A DNA stretch of 53,214 nucleotides from Lachnospiraceae bacterium (lineage in GTDB: Bacteria > Bacillota > Clostridia > Lachnospirales > Lachnospiraceae): contig JALFIB010000058.1 in assembly GCA_022776305.1 (NCBI GenBank), positions 1 through 53,214 on the forward strand, given 5' to 3'. The notes under the pieces were generated by a model that did no database searches, was not told the DNA's origin, and saw only the letters and a program-made list of their open reading frames with translations. The translations under genes were made by a program, and so were the position numbers. Below are positions 27,382-33,210 of this stretch, piece after piece. Position 1 is the stretch's first letter. The number at the start of each line of letters is the position of its first letter.

Positions 27382-28236
27382 ATGAAAAAAGCAGTAGCAA
27401 TGGCAATGGCAGCAATGATGACAATGAGTATGGGAATGACTGCAATGGCAGCAGCAGAGGGTGATATTACGATCTGCTCCAGAGAAGAGGGATCAGGTAC
27501 AAGAGGAGCATTCATTGAACTGTTTGGAGTAGAGGAAAAGGATGCAGACGGAAATAAGATTGACAATACTACAGAAGCAGCTAAGATCACAAACAGTACC
27601 TCCGTTATGCTCAGCACTGTAGAAGGAGATGTAAACGCAATCGGTTACATTTCTCTTGGTTCTCTTAACGATACTGTTACAGCAGTGAAGATCGACGGTG
27701 CAGAGGCAACAGCAGAGAATATTGTTGCAGGAGAGTACAAAGTAGTACGTCCTTTCAACATTGCAACCACAGCAGAAGTAAGCGACGCAGCAGCAGATTT
27801 TATTGCTTACATAATGAGTGAAGAAGGTCAGGCAGTGATCGAAGAGGAAGGTTACATTTCCGTTGGAGAGCCGGCACCATTTGAAGGCGGAGAAGTAGAG
27901 GGCAAAGTAGTAGTTGCTGGTTCTTCTTCTGTTACACCGGTTATGGAAAAACTTGCTGAAGCTTATGGCGCAGTCAATGATAAAGTTGAGATCGAAGTAC
28001 AGCAGAGCGATTCTACCACAGGTATGACATCTGCCATCGACGGCCTTTGCGATATCGGTATGGCATCTCGCGAACTGAAAGACAGCGAACTGGAAGCAGG
28101 CCTTACACCGACAGTAATTGCTCAGGATGGAATCGCAGTGATCGTAAACAATGAAAGCGGTATCACAGAACTGACCAGCGAGCAGGTAAAAGACATTTAC
28201 GTTGGAAACATCACAACTTGGGAAGAACTTCAGTAA
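27382..28236 (+). CDS. pstS: Phosphate ABC transporter substrate-binding protein, circularly permuted
   Basis: A 284-residue secreted binding protein for phosphate; the pstC-pstA-pstB-phoU genes follow. The signal peptide (1-24) ends in AMAAAEG with no lipobox cysteine. The domain halves are in reversed order compared with canonical PstS. Residues 29-162 match the usual second half (ITICSREEGSGTRGAF, NAIGYISLGSLND, VVRPFNI, SEEGQAVIEEEGYI). Residues 176-284 match the usual first half (VVVAGSSSVTPVMEKLAEAY, DIGMASRELKD, DGIAVIVN, ITTWEELQ). An acidic Gly/Pro linker (163-175) joins them. Phosphate-binding loops SGT (38-40) and SSS (181-183) are both kept, so the protein should be functional. 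Confidence 0.9.
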   Translation: MKKAVAMAMAAMMTMSMGMTAMAAAEGDITICSREEGSGTRGAFIELFGVEEKDADGNKIDNTTEAAKITNSTSVMLSTVEGDVNAIGYISLGSLNDTVTAVKIDGAEATAENIVAGEYKVVRPFNIATTAEVSDAAADFIAYIMSEEGQAVIEEEGYISVGEPAPFEGGEVEGKVVVAGSSSVTPVMEKLAEAYGAVNDKVEIEVQQSDSTTGMTSAIDGLCDIGMASRELKDSELEAGLTPTVIAQDGIAVIVNNESGITELTSEQVKDIYVGNITTWEELQ

Positions 28237-28340
28237 GGAATTCTGCAGTGAGATAAAACTTTCGTAGGGAAAGGACAGAATGCATACCGTCTCTAGGGCA
28301 CATGGTACCAAGGGGCGGTGTGAAGTCAGGGGGATGACGA

Positions 28341-29198
28341 ATGACAAAAAAATTTCAAGAACGGTTTATGCAGATAGTTTTTCTCGTAGCAGCCTGCGCA
28401 TCCGTGCTTGCAGTTGCACTGATCTGTATTTTCCTGTTTGCAAACGGAATTCCGGCGATGAAAGAGATTGGTCTGGCGAAATTCCTGTTTGGGCAGAAAT
28501 GGAAACCGTCAAATAATTTATACGGCATCCTGCCGTTTATCCTCGGCAGTATTTACGTTACTGCGGGCTCCATCATCATCGGAGTTCCGACCGCACTTTT
28601 GACAGCCATCTTTCTGGCATTTTACTGTCCGAAAAAGCTGTATCCCATTTTAAAAGCAATGGTGAATCTGATGGCGGGGATCCCGTCTGTCGTATACGGG
28701 TTCTTTGGCTTGGTCATGATCGTACCGCTGATGCGGGATTTGACCGGACATGATGGCAGTACCATGCTTACAGCTTCGATTTTGCTGGGCATTATGATCC
28801 TGCCTACTGTCACAGGAGTGGTAGAACCGGCGTTGCGCAGTGTTCCCTCGTCTTATTATGAAGGAGCACTGGCACTGGGAGCTACCCATGAAAGAAGTGT
28901 ATTTATGACTGTGATTCCGGCTGCCAAATCCGGCGTGATCGCAGGAATCGTACTAGGAATCGGCCGCTCCATCGGAGAAACTATGGCAGTGATCATGGTG
29001 GCAGGAAACCAGACATGGATGCCGCAGGGACTGATGAAAGGACTTCGTACCATGACGGCCAACATCGTTATGGAGATGGGCTACGCTGCTGACCTCCATA
29101 GGGAAGCGTTGATCGCCACAGGTGTGGTACTGTTTGTATTTATTTTGATCATCAATCTCTGTGTATCGGCTTTGAAACGGAGATCAGCTTATGAATAA
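28341..29198 (+). CDS. pstC: Phosphate ABC transporter permease PstC
   Basis: A 285-residue permease with about six membrane segments. It has LMAGIPSVVYGFFGLVMI near residues 108-125 and the EAA coupling loop YEGALALGATHERSVFMTVIPAAKSG, then GIGRSIGETMAVIMVAGN. It imports phosphate with PstA. The ATG follows AGGGGGAT. The C-terminus overlaps pstA by 8 nt. The 104-nt gap after pstS holds no obvious terminator. Confidence 0.95.
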   Translation: MTKKFQERFMQIVFLVAACASVLAVALICIFLFANGIPAMKEIGLAKFLFGQKWKPSNNLYGILPFILGSIYVTAGSIIIGVPTALLTAIFLAFYCPKKLYPILKAMVNLMAGIPSVVYGFFGLVMIVPLMRDLTGHDGSTMLTASILLGIMILPTVTGVVEPALRSVPSSYYEGALALGATHERSVFMTVIPAAKSGVIAGIVLGIGRSIGETMAVIMVAGNQTWMPQGLMKGLRTMTANIVMEMGYAADLHREALIATGVVLFVFILIINLCVSALKRRSAYE

Positions 29199-30093
29199 AG
29201 AAATAAAAACACAACAAAAGAAAGAAAATCATAGTAAGGAAAAGGTAATCGCCTTGAAAAATCTTTGGATACACCATCCTTTTTCTGCAATGGTGTCCTG
29301 CCTCGTCTGGTTTGCGGCATTGCTGACCATGGCGGTACTCCTTTTCTTGGTAGGCTTCATCGTAGTGAAAGGTGTGCGCCACCTTACACCGGAATTATTC
29401 TCATTTACTTATAACTCTGACAACGTATCCTTGATGCCTGCTCTGGTCAATACGCTGGTTATAACGGCGGTGGCTCTTCTGATCGCTGTTCCCCTCGGGA
29501 TTTTTTCTGCGATCTATCTGGTGGAATATGCGAAAAAAGGAAGCCGTCTGGTAAAACTGATCCGTATCACGGCAGAGACGCTGCAGGGTATCCCCTCTAT
29601 TATTTACGGATTGTTCGGTCTTTTGTTTTTCAGCACAGCCCTTAAATGGGGATATTCCCTGCTTTCCGGTGCCATGACTCTGGTGATTATGATCCTGCCA
29701 TTGATCATCCGTACCACAGAGGAAGCGCTGATCAGTGTGCCGGATTCCTATCGGGAAGCATCCTTCGGAGTAGGAGCCGGAAAACTCAGGACAATCTTTA
29801 AAGTAGTATTGCCCACGGCAATTCCCGGAATTTTATCCGGCGTGGTATTGGCAACAGGCAGGATCGTGGGAGAGACGGCAGCTCTTTTGTATACAGCAGG
29901 TTCTGTTGCAAAGATCCCTTCCAGCTTGTTTGGCTCCGGAAGAACGCTGGCGGTACATATGTATGTGCTCTCCAGCGAGGGACTTTATATGGATCAGGCC
30001 TATGCTACGGCAGTGGTACTTCTGGTATTCGTACTGGTACTCAACAGTATTTCCACACTGTGCGCAAGGGGATTGACGAAGGGAAGAGGTTAA
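29191..30093 (+). CDS. pstA: Phosphate ABC transporter permease PstA
   Basis: A 300-residue permease, about six membrane segments, preceded by a Lys-rich ~25-residue cytoplasmic start. It has TLQGIPSIIYGLFGLLFF and the EAA loop YREASFGVGAGKLRTIFKVVLPTAIPG, then GRIVGETAALLYTAGS. It is translationally coupled to pstC through an 8-nt overlap and lies 6 nt from pstB. Confidence 0.95.
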   Translation: MNKEIKTQQKKENHSKEKVIALKNLWIHHPFSAMVSCLVWFAALLTMAVLLFLVGFIVVKGVRHLTPELFSFTYNSDNVSLMPALVNTLVITAVALLIAVPLGIFSAIYLVEYAKKGSRLVKLIRITAETLQGIPSIIYGLFGLLFFSTALKWGYSLLSGAMTLVIMILPLIIRTTEEALISVPDSYREASFGVGAGKLRTIFKVVLPTAIPGILSGVVLATGRIVGETAALLYTAGSVAKIPSSLFGSGRTLAVHMYVLSSEGLYMDQAYATAVVLLVFVLVLNSISTLCARGLTKGRG

Positions 30094-30099
30094 AAGAAG

Positions 30100-30849
30100 A
30101 TGGGAAAAATAGATATTAAAAATACAGATTTACATTACGGTGATTTTCATGCTTTGAAAAATATCAATCTTGAGATTCCTGCCAACAAGATCACTGCATT
30201 CATTGGTCCCAGCGGCTGCGGGAAATCCACACTGCTGAAATCATTGAACCGGATGAATGACCTTGTCCCGGGATGCCGGATCACAGGAGAATTGACTCTG
30301 GATGGGGAAGACATTTACGGGGATATGGATGTTAACCTGCTGCGCAAGCGCGTCGGCATGGTATTCCAGAAACCGAACCCTTTCCCCATGAGCATTTATG
30401 ATAATATTGCCTACGGTCCAAGGACACACGGGATCCACGCAAAAGCAAAGCTGGATGAGATCGTGGAAAAGGCCTTGAAGGATGCTGCCATCTGGGACGA
30501 GGTAAAAGACCGTCTCAAAAAAAGCGCCCTTGGTTTATCCGGTGGGCAGCAGCAGAGGTTATGTATCGCAAGGGCACTTGCCGTAGAGCCGGAAGTCCTT
30601 CTGATGGACGAGCCTACTTCAGCCCTTGACCCTATTTCCACGTCCAGAATCGAGGATCTGGCAGTGGAATTGAAAGAAAAGTATACCATCGTTATGGTGA
30701 CCCATAACATGCAGCAGGCAGCACGTATCTCAGATAAAACAGCCTTTTTCCTTCTGGGAGAAGTGATTGAATACGATGATACCATGACTCTGTTTTCTAT
30801 GCCTAAGAACAAGAAAACAGAAGAGTATATAACAGGGAGGTTTGGCTGA
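30100..30849 (+). CDS. pstB: Phosphate ABC transporter ATPase PstB
   Basis: A 249-residue ABC ATPase with PstB hallmarks: Walker [42 protein letters not shown], signature [15 protein letters not shown], Walker [17 protein letters not shown], and H-loop [13 protein letters not shown]. It energises the PstC-PstA channel. The stop lies 1 nt before the phoU ATG, so coupling is likely. Confidence 0.97.
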
Positions 30850-30850
30850 T

Positions 30851-31519
30851 ATGAGGGAGCTTTATACAGAAAAGCTGGCACAGCTGAAAAATGAAGTATT
30901 GGAGCTTGGTATGCTTTGCGAACAGGCGATCATGAAAACATACCGTCTTTTGATTTCCGACGAGCTGCGCGAAGAGCAGGTAAAAGAGATCGATGCGCTG
31001 GAAAAAGAGATCGATACGAAGGAACATTCTGTGGAAGCCATCTGCATCCAGCTTTTGCTGAGACAGCAGCCGGTGGCAACGGATCTTCGAAGAATTTCTG
31101 CCGCACTGAAAATGGTGACAGATATGGAACGTATCGGTGATCAGGCAACGGATATTGCCGAGATCATGGAGACGGGAAGCATCGATGTGCCGGTAAAGGG
31201 AGTCCGCATTACTGAAATGGCAGAATTTACCATGAACATGGTAAATAAAAGTGTGGAAGCTTATATCAACCGCAATCTGGAGCTTGCCCGTGAAGTGATC
31301 GCAAGTGACGATATTCTGGATGATCTTTTTCTTGAAGTAAGGAAATCACTGAACATCAATGTAGGAGACTTTTCAAGTGACCAGGTATTAGACCTGCTGA
31401 TGATAGCAAAATATTATGAGCGGATCGGCGACCATGCCACCAATATTGCGGAGTGGGCGGAGTTTTCACTGACCGGAAAACATAGGGACGGTGAAAAGGT
31501 CTACGAAGTTTTCTCATAG
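30851..31519 (+). CDS. phoU: Phosphate signalling protein PhoU
   Basis: A 222-residue protein of two PhoU three-helix repeats, with E/DxxxD metal-binding patterns MVTDMERIGDQATDIAE and MIAKYYERIGDHATNIAEW at equivalent places in each half. PhoU links the Pst transporter to the PhoR-type kinase and limits uptake in replete phosphate. ATG at 30851 is chosen because GGGAGG lies about 10 nt upstream. A TTG at 30842 is in frame but abuts that site. Confidence 0.95.
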   Translation: MRELYTEKLAQLKNEVLELGMLCEQAIMKTYRLLISDELREEQVKEIDALEKEIDTKEHSVEAICIQLLLRQQPVATDLRRISAALKMVTDMERIGDQATDIAEIMETGSIDVPVKGVRITEMAEFTMNMVNKSVEAYINRNLELAREVIASDDILDDLFLEVRKSLNINVGDFSSDQVLDLLMIAKYYERIGDHATNIAEWAEFSLTGKHRDGEKVYEVFS

Positions 31520-31569: not shown

Positions 31570-31659
31570 AAGGAGATAACAAGTTATATACAATTAGGTA
31601 ATTGCGAAACTCGCGAAGCTCGTTCACAATCTTGAACTAAAACAATGAGGAGAAAAATT

Positions 31660-33210
31660 ATGAAATTAAAAAATAAGATGACAAAGGCAGCTGCAGGGCT
31701 TTTGACAGCTGCAGTATCATTTGGAGCAATGGCACCGGCACTTCCTGTGGCAGCAGAGGAAACAGCTGCTGCACCGAAATACGTATTCTTATTCATCGGA
31801 GACGGTATGAGTTATCCTCAGATCCAGATTACATCCGATTATCTTGGCGCTATGGAGCAGGATCCGGAATCTGATATCCTTACAGGACCTAAGAGATTGA
31901 CTATGATGGATTTCCCTGTGGCAGGTTCTGCTACAACCTTTGATTCCACTTCCTTCTGTCCGGATTCCGCATCCACTGCAACCTCCATTGCAACGGGGCA
32001 TAAAACTTACAGCGGATCCATCAACGTAGACGAGACAGGCACCGTTTCTTACGAGACGATCACTGAAAAATTGAAAGACCAGTTGGGATATAAGATCGGA
32101 GTGATCTCTTCTGTTAACATCAACCACGCTACACCGGCCGCATTTTATGCACATCAGGTGAGCAGAAACAGCTACTATGAGATCTCAAATGAGATGATCG
32201 AAAGCGGATTTGATTATTTTGCAGGCGGCGGCCTGAAACAGACAACAGGAGAAAATAAAGATCAAGAAGATTCTTATACACTGGCAGAAAAAGCAGGATA
32301 TAAGGTAATCAAAACACAGGCAGAAGCAGAAGCACTTACTGCAGAGGACGGCAAGGCCATTGTGATCGCTGAAACACTGGCAGACAGTGATGCATGCTCC
32401 TATGAAAATGACAGGGCAGAAGAGGAATGGGCACTTGCTGATTTCGTTGAAAAAGGCATTGAAGTGCTGGATAATGAGAAGGGCTTCTTCATGATGGTAG
32501 AAGGCGGAAAGATTGACTGGGCCTGCCATGCAAACGATGCAGGATCCACAATTGCAGATACCATCGCTCTTGACAATGCTGTAGACAAAGCAGTGGAGTT
32601 TTACAATGAGCATCCGGAAGAGACATTGATCCTTGTAACAGGTGACCATGAGACCGGCGGACTTACCATCGGATACGCAGGAACAGATTACGATACTTTC
32701 CTTTCCAACATGGATAGCCAGAAGCTTTCTTATGCAAAATATGATTCTGATTACGTAGCAAAATACAAAGAAGAAGGAACAGATTTTGACACAGTAATGG
32801 CAGACATCACAGAACTGTTCGGACTGGTTCCGCCGACAGAAGGGCAGGTTGAAACGGAAGCAACGATGGACAGTGCTGACAAGCATCCGGAATCTGAGGA
32901 TACAGGAAGCCTTGTTATGACACAGTATGAATATGATAAGCTGAAAGCTGCATATGAGACTACTATGAGCAGGACAGGGGAAGAAGAGATCGGTCAGGAA
33001 GAGTACGTTCTGTACGGAAGCTATGAACCCCTTACGGTAACGATCACACATATCCTGAACAACAAGAGCGGTATCAATTTTGCATCCTATGCACATACAG
33101 GCCTTCCGGTAGCAGTTTTTGCAAAAGGAAATGGACAGGAACTCTTTGAAGGTTACTATGACAACACAGAAATCTATACAAAGATGGCTACACTGCTTGG
33201 TGTTCAGTAA
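31660..33210 (+). CDS. phoA: Secreted alkaline phosphatase
   Basis: A 516-residue enzyme releasing phosphate from monoesters outside the cell. A signal peptide (about residues 1-30, cut near VAAEE) precedes the catalytic domain. Metal and active-site motifs are FLFIGDGMSYPQ; CPDSASTATSIATGHKT, with the nucleophile Ser of DSAST; MMVEGGKIDWACHANDA; and LVTGDHETGGLTIG. The last part (ITHILNNKSGINFASYAHTGLPVAVFAKG) holds the final metal-binding His. An ATG at 31645 overlaps the ribosome-binding site (GAGGAGAAAA), so 31660 is the start. It lies 140 nt after phoU, in the phosphate island. Confidence 0.93.
   Translation: MKLKNKMTKAAAGLLTAAVSFGAMAPALPVAAEETAAAPKYVFLFIGDGMSYPQIQITSDYLGAMEQDPESDILTGPKRLTMMDFPVAGSATTFDSTSFCPDSASTATSIATGHKTYSGSINVDETGTVSYETITEKLKDQLGYKIGVISSVNINHATPAAFYAHQVSRNSYYEISNEMIESGFDYFAGGGLKQTTGENKDQEDSYTLAEKAGYKVIKTQAEAEALTAEDGKAIVIAETLADSDACSYENDRAEEEWALADFVEKGIEVLDNEKGFFMMVEGGKIDWACHANDAGSTIADTIALDNAVDKAVEFYNEHPEETLILVTGDHETGGLTIGYAGTDYDTFLSNMDSQKLSYAKYDSDYVAKYKEEGTDFDTVMADITELFGLVPPTEGQVETEATMDSADKHPESEDTGSLVMTQYEYDKLKAAYETTMSRTGEEEIGQEEYVLYGSYEPLTVTITHILNNKSGINFASYAHTGLPVAVFAKGNGQELFEGYYDNTEIYTKMATLLGVQ

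Follow-up and report, generated by a model that had tools for sequence, protein, structure and literature searches.

A circularly permuted phosphate-binding protein at the head of a pst operon in a Lachnospiraceae bacterium, and a probable double origin of its topology

Introduction

A natural circular permutation has been described for TpMglB-2, a substrate-binding lipoprotein of Treponema pallidum, together with the proposal of a permuted subclass, 'Type Ic' (PMC4990184). TpMglB-2 resembles the phosphate-binding protein PstS analyzed here in being a naturally permuted substrate-binding protein, but it has a Type I glucose-binding fold that is cut elsewhere, and the available text of its report describes no tandem intermediate (PMC4990184). 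For DNA methyltransferases and for saposin/swaposin, permutation has been modeled as duplication, fusion and trimming, a model shared with PstS; functional intermediates are expected on this route, and according to a review they are documented in DNA methyltransferases (PMC3320104). The difference is that PstS, one bacterial transporter family, has probably been permuted twice independently and has also given rise to fused tandem forms on two independent occasions. Arguments on how protein topology evolves mostly compare two end states; PstS gives canonical, fused tandem and permuted forms.

The other close parallel is PstS2 of Streptococcus pneumoniae (SP_2084; PDB 4H1X). According to the available text on pneumococcal phosphate transport, Pst2 has a part in phosphate uptake, deletion of both pst1-phoU1 and pst2-phoU2 in an unencapsulated strain lowers uptake by about half, and one of the two Pst transporters is sufficient at 1 mM phosphate (PMC4913102). 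No word starting with 'permut' occurs in the portion of its main text available (PMC4913102). The identifier 4H1X was found in none of the open-licence papers searched, and permuted PstS was the subject of no title or abstract opening among the open-licence matches listed.

Here we analyzed a stretch of 53,214 nucleotides, positions 1 to 53,214 of contig JALFIB010000058.1 of a Lachnospiraceae assembly (GCA_022776305.1), hereafter called the window. A first-pass annotation made from the sequence had proposed that its PstS is circularly permuted. To that proposal the present work adds the common occurrence of this topology, the existence of a solved structure with it, a second permuted paralogue in the same genome, and the probable double occurrence of the permutation. 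We put the probability of the whole explanation, i.e., a permuted subunit of a Pst importer that arose by duplication, fusion and trimming, probably at least twice at one loop, at roughly 0.88.

Results and discussion

The halves of the window PstS are inverted

The permuted pstS gene occupies positions 27382..28236 of the forward strand and codes for 284 residues. Direct reading of the sequence indicates a Sec-type signal peptide (residues 1-27; 27382..27462, +) that ends in AMAAAEG and is devoid of a lipobox cysteine. It is followed by what is canonically the second half of PstS (SREEGSGTRGAF to GYIS; 27463..27861, +), which corresponds to positions 163-294 of the TIGR02136 model. A linker of 12 residues (VGEPAPFEGGEV; 27862..27897, +) then connects the former C-terminus with the former N-terminus, and the canonical first half (EGKVVVAGSSSVTPVME to TTWEEL; 27898..28230, +) comes last, with TIGR02136 positions 39-158 matching 27898-28239 in the profile search of the genome. 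Thus, the half with SREEGSGTRGAF is N-terminal and the half with VVVAGSSSVTPVME, ending in TTWEEL, is C-terminal. PF12849 gave the same inverted order.

As encoded, the protein matches TIGR02136 in two stretches with a total of 176.4 bits. When its residues were re-ordered canonically, a single stretch covering positions 40-294 of 295 was obtained, at 186.7 bits. Both values are below the model's cut-off of 206.6, and since the re-ordered protein also falls short, order accounts for only part of the deficit. The PF12849 gathering cut-off of 27 is exceeded (104.4 bits, two stretches). As a warning, family models that depend on order break permuted PstS into two inverted stretches.

As first proposed, the chain is opened in the loop that leads from WEEL to SREEGSGT; this loop, missing from permuted PstS, has GG at its start in 66 of the 76 canonical proteins. 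The linker had been described as acidic and 13 residues long, and of this the length was off by one according to the profile boundaries, while three of the 12 residues are acidic. In the main permuted group (clade 1, see below), the linkers of 159 distinct proteins range over 11-19 residues and are 16% acidic.

The PstS-type frames that we collected comprise 252 distinct sequences, of which 168 are permuted, 76 canonical, 3 fused tandem and 5 fragments; the set is enriched through the queries used and is no census. The recurrence of the inverted order in 168 of these frames makes chance similarity or misassembly very unlikely. An origin of the halves in two different families, which had been named as an observation that would speak against permutation, is ruled out, as both match PF12849 and TIGR02136. 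This confirmed that the window protein is a PstS with its second half before its first.

The predicted fold matches a solved permuted PstS

An AlphaFold2 model of the window protein, built from an alignment of 45 permuted sequences (alignment A1), has a mean pLDDT of 89.7, and its sole stretch below 50 comprises residues 1-21, within the signal peptide. The model superposes on 4H1X over 259 columns with an rmsd of 1.1 Å, TM scores of 0.88/0.97 and 44% identity. Among the 50 Foldseek matches listed, 4H1X is the one PstS that superposes end to end. The canonical structures 4Q8R, 4GD5 and 1TWY align sequentially over 142-146 columns, about half of the model; other folds, among them HisG and OpuAC, reach a larger number of aligned columns, at approximately 7-11 Å and TM scores near 0.3-0.5. 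The structural check suggested at the outset thus shows that the protein is not colinear with ordinary PstS. Inverted halves within one predicted fold that can be superposed on the permuted 4H1X characterize the window protein as a circular permutant.

Sequence comparison agrees. With a profile of the permuted group, 4H1X was the only one of 10 distinct PDB sequences matched in a single stretch across both halves, and tree placement puts it in clade 1. The window protein belongs to the same clade and is collinear with 4H1X over the full chain, which places it in the group that contains 4H1X. As 4H1X matches end to end in structure and in a single stretch in sequence, the permuted fold is real and is already present in the PDB. 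The pneumococcal protein differs in coming from another organism. Canonical PstS (TIGR02136, PF12849) is homologous in both halves and shares the ligand loops and the kind of operon, but differs in the order of the halves.

The protein would retain one full two-lobed fold with both phosphate-binding loops. Its chain would begin and end in a surface loop that in ordinary PstS lies within the chain, and the short linker would bridge the old termini.

Operon and ligand positions point to a Pst importer subunit

The downstream genes, all on the forward strand, form the complete set that had been reported behind pstS, and each scores above its NCBIfam cut-off: the permeases pstC (28341..29198; TIGR02138, 283.4 bits, cut-off 196.45) and pstA (29191..30093; TIGR00974, 278.2 bits, cut-off 193.45), the ATPase pstB (30100..30849; TIGR00972, 422.3 bits, cut-off 343.2) and phoU (30842..31519; TIGR02135, 175.4 bits, cut-off 130.25). 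Next comes a gene for an alkaline phosphatase-like protein with a signal peptide (31645..33210, +), whose match to NF007810 (108.1 bits) is below the cut-off of 540. It may be part of a phosphate-starvation set.

Ligand positions were compared among 157 clade-1 proteins, with residue names and roles (S38, D56, T141) that we assume to hold as in Escherichia coli PstS. Within REEGSGT, the residues R, S, G and T are invariant (157/157). Loop 1 likewise has two invariant serines, with S or T at its third serine position. The 'S38-like' serine of the QQSDS-type motif is likewise found in all 157 proteins, and the D56-like aspartate in 140. These counts, together with the invariant columns of A1, indicate conservation of the phosphate-contacting positions. 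The proposal that both phosphate-binding loops were kept is thus supported at the sequence level for most of the positions.

In the second group of permuted proteins (clade 2), the D56-like aspartate is replaced in 9 of 9 proteins (L148-L152, L251, L254, L255), and at the position equivalent to T141, the Thr of GSGT, six proteins have T, two have S and one has A. Since 7 of 9 canonical relatives of this clade likewise carry another residue in place of the aspartate, its loss is no consequence of permutation. The ligand preference of these proteins may differ.

The operon, the fold and the ligand positions lead us to infer that the window protein is the phosphate-binding subunit of a Pst importer. 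It would capture phosphate outside the membrane and deliver it to PstC/PstA for PstB-powered transport, as ordinary PstS does. We also considered that the permuted protein has become a secreted phosphate scavenger or sensor and is no longer an importer subunit. The window protein has no lipobox cysteine after its signal peptide and so lacks the mark of a Gram-positive lipoprotein, a feature shared with a set of relatives, and a paralogue in the same genome adjoins a Na+/phosphate symporter gene, with no pst permease or ATPase gene seen on its contig of 3,688 bases. However, the window pstS is the first gene of a complete pst operon, a simple pattern detects a lipobox in 116 of 137 permuted proteins, and in the available text on pneumococcus, Pst2, with its permuted PstS, has a part in phosphate uptake (PMC4913102). 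A scavenger or sensor is accordingly a quite unlikely alternative to the role of importer subunit.

With the same simple pattern, the lipobox was also absent at L006, L007, L009-L011, L013-L016 and L018, and at L024 and L033 of Blautia.

Permuted PstS is common

A search for the same half order across Lachnospiraceae had been recommended, and it found the order widely. Within the window's family, 86 of 299 genomes, including that of the window, match the permuted paralogue query at E 1e-40 or better; a few of these hits are incomplete or run across a stop. Of 60 genomes from the family sampled earlier, by our count 16 have inverted TIGR02136 halves, 22 have a canonical match above the cut-off and none has both. 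At class level, 49 of 245 genomes match the A1 query at E 1e-50 (two of the 49 partially), and at phylum level full-length single matches to A1 were obtained, by our count, in 10 of 299 genomes. A1 matches were also found in 10 of 344 genomes of the phylum of G358, the genome of an Erysipelothrix locus, and in 4 of 120 of the phylum of G359, the genome of a Spirochaetaceae locus. The phylum of G361, the genome of a Hyphomonadaceae locus, yielded no permuted PstS, the sole match among 249 being a canonical gene, covering positions 14-151. The permuted topology is therefore common and not unique to the window.

Individual genomes vary in content. G089 has two permuted genes and one canonical gene. 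The genomes of L233, L243, L244 and L129 each carry two permuted pstS genes on a single contig, showing that duplication continues after permutation. In G1497, of the window's genus and 99% complete, the permuted paralogue found no match at E 1e-40. The idea that a canonical PstS encoded elsewhere in the window genome takes over the function was rejected, since no such copy was found in the assembly, which is given as 89% complete; its third PF12849 match falls in a LysR regulator.

The second permuted gene of the window genome is on another contig (C283; L188 2755-3678, reverse strand) and codes for a divergent PstS-type lipoprotein with the lipobox LFSGC. It lies 19 bases upstream of a gene for a Na+/phosphate cotransporter with a PhoU domain (L188 1029-2735, reverse strand; PF02690, PF01895). 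The pairing of a binding protein with a Na+/phosphate symporter looks unusual. Among 19 other loci of the family (L308-L326), searched within short flanks, an adjacent cotransporter gene is present in nine (L308-L312, L314, L316, L317 and L319, all within the first 12) and absent in ten.

The permutation probably arose twice

Maximum likelihood trees were built with the halves of all proteins set in canonical order, after thinning of the rows by identity (from 190 to 97 and from 244 to 87 for PstS, and from 150 to 58 for the permeases). Six frames with short halves and the long branch L083 were left out. In the 97-row tree, the permuted proteins require two changes of order, and a single permuted clade was not rejected (AU test, p = 0.222). 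Sampling was then widened with a small order in which the second type is present in all 8 genomes searched, and with canonical relatives from the order of G256. The resulting 87-row tree places clade 2 beside the canonical proteins L293 and L294 (support 100/99), within a canonical region, and in this sample a single permuted PstS clade was rejected (AU p = 0.0043).

Trees of the separate halves gave clade 2 the same neighbours as the whole tree (support of 97 for the first half and 94 for the second); the second-half tree has few columns and requires two changes for clade 1 itself. Three random re-samplings required 2, 2 and 3 changes and recovered clade 2 as one group each time, with support for its canonical neighbours of 91, 99 and 7.

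The permeases provide independent phylogenetic evidence. Their PstC+PstA tree covers 58 operons, retains the long rows L131 and L127 and has an unsettled bootstrap. In it, the clade-1 operons form one group (100/99, 13 rows), and the five clade-2 operons group with canonical L294 (100/98). A single permease group for both clades was rejected (AU p = 0.000228). Canonical L302 stands beside clade 1 in the PstS tree but not in the permease tree.

Sequence profiles and linkers also separate the clades. With the clade-2 profile, canonical 4Q8R (234.9 bits) outscores permuted 4H1X (196.4 bits); with the clade-1 profile, 4H1X (315.6) outscores 4Q8R (247.2). The cut loop is the same in both clades, but the linkers differ in make-up and mostly in length, clade 1 having 11-19 residues and clade 2 having 16-20.

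These results have to be weighed against a single permutation, with clade 2 being either a fast-evolving branch or the product of transfer of the topology followed by recombination with local canonical sequence. Such an origin would agree with the AU test of the first, thinner sample and with the shared cut loop. Yet it is contradicted by the AU tests with better sampling and on the permeases, by the placement of clade 2 near canonical L294 in the trees of the first half, the second half and PstC+PstA, by the preference of the clade-2 profile for a canonical structure, and by the dissimilar linkers. We thus consider a single event improbable and conclude that PstS was probably permuted twice, with the chain opened at the same loop. 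If so, this convergence would suggest that the moved chain ends confer an advantage, structural or in the position of the tether. Opening the loop would move the N-terminal anchor elsewhere on the protein, a possible reason for the choice of this site.

Fused tandem genes illustrate the proposed route

The first-pass annotation had proposed that a duplicated ancestral gene lost its outer halves. In three genomes, a single frame runs first-second-first-second half: G1319 (556 residues), G1334 (554) and G1321 (586). Their repeats are 80-90% identical and are joined by middle linkers of 13, 12 and 5 residues, to be compared with the 11-19 and 16-20 residues of the permuted clades 1 and 2, and pstC, pstA and pstB lie downstream in all three. 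A search that addressed 260 genomes of their order gave results for 249, and among these only the three have the full-length fused form. In the tree they represent two separate fusions, with corresponding repeats of L287 and L288 pairing across genomes and L289 standing beside the single-copy canonical L306. The three fused genes, at two places in the tree, and a head-to-tail pair of canonical pstS genes at L121 lend support to the proposed route. The fused genes are living analogues of the intermediate and not ancestors of clade 1 or clade 2. No three-segment, half-trimmed PstS gene was present among the 252 frames.

Along this route, a canonical pstS would have been duplicated in tandem, the copies fused in the order first-second-first-second, and the outer halves then presumably trimmed. 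Fission of the gene and re-fusion of the half-genes in the opposite order could give the same product, and at the canonical locus L123 the two halves are indeed in separate overlapping frames. This alternative is opposed by the fused tandem genes in two lineages and the tandem pair at L121. Moreover, L123 is the sole case of an isolated second half among the 252 frames, and a lower length limit added only a frame-broken piece in L320. Fission and re-fusion is thus an unlikely route compared with tandem duplication. We consider it likely that at least two independent permutations took place in bacteria, at the same loop and through fused tandem genes of a kind that is still extant.

If this reading is true, permutation by duplication is represented in the PstS family by its start, an intermediate and its end state. 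It is a simple, assayable family in which the outcome was probably repeated, and this probable recurrence, together with the fused genes, makes it a good test case.

The canonical pstS at L123 (1296-2179) consists of two overlapping half-frames, which may reflect a frameshift, an error in sequencing or a gene that has been split; a broken gene or a sequencing error is as likely as a fission-fusion stage. Two divergent PstS-like frames, of 756 residues at L122 (827-3094) and 366 residues at L134 (1075-2172), match both halves weakly and in canonical order.
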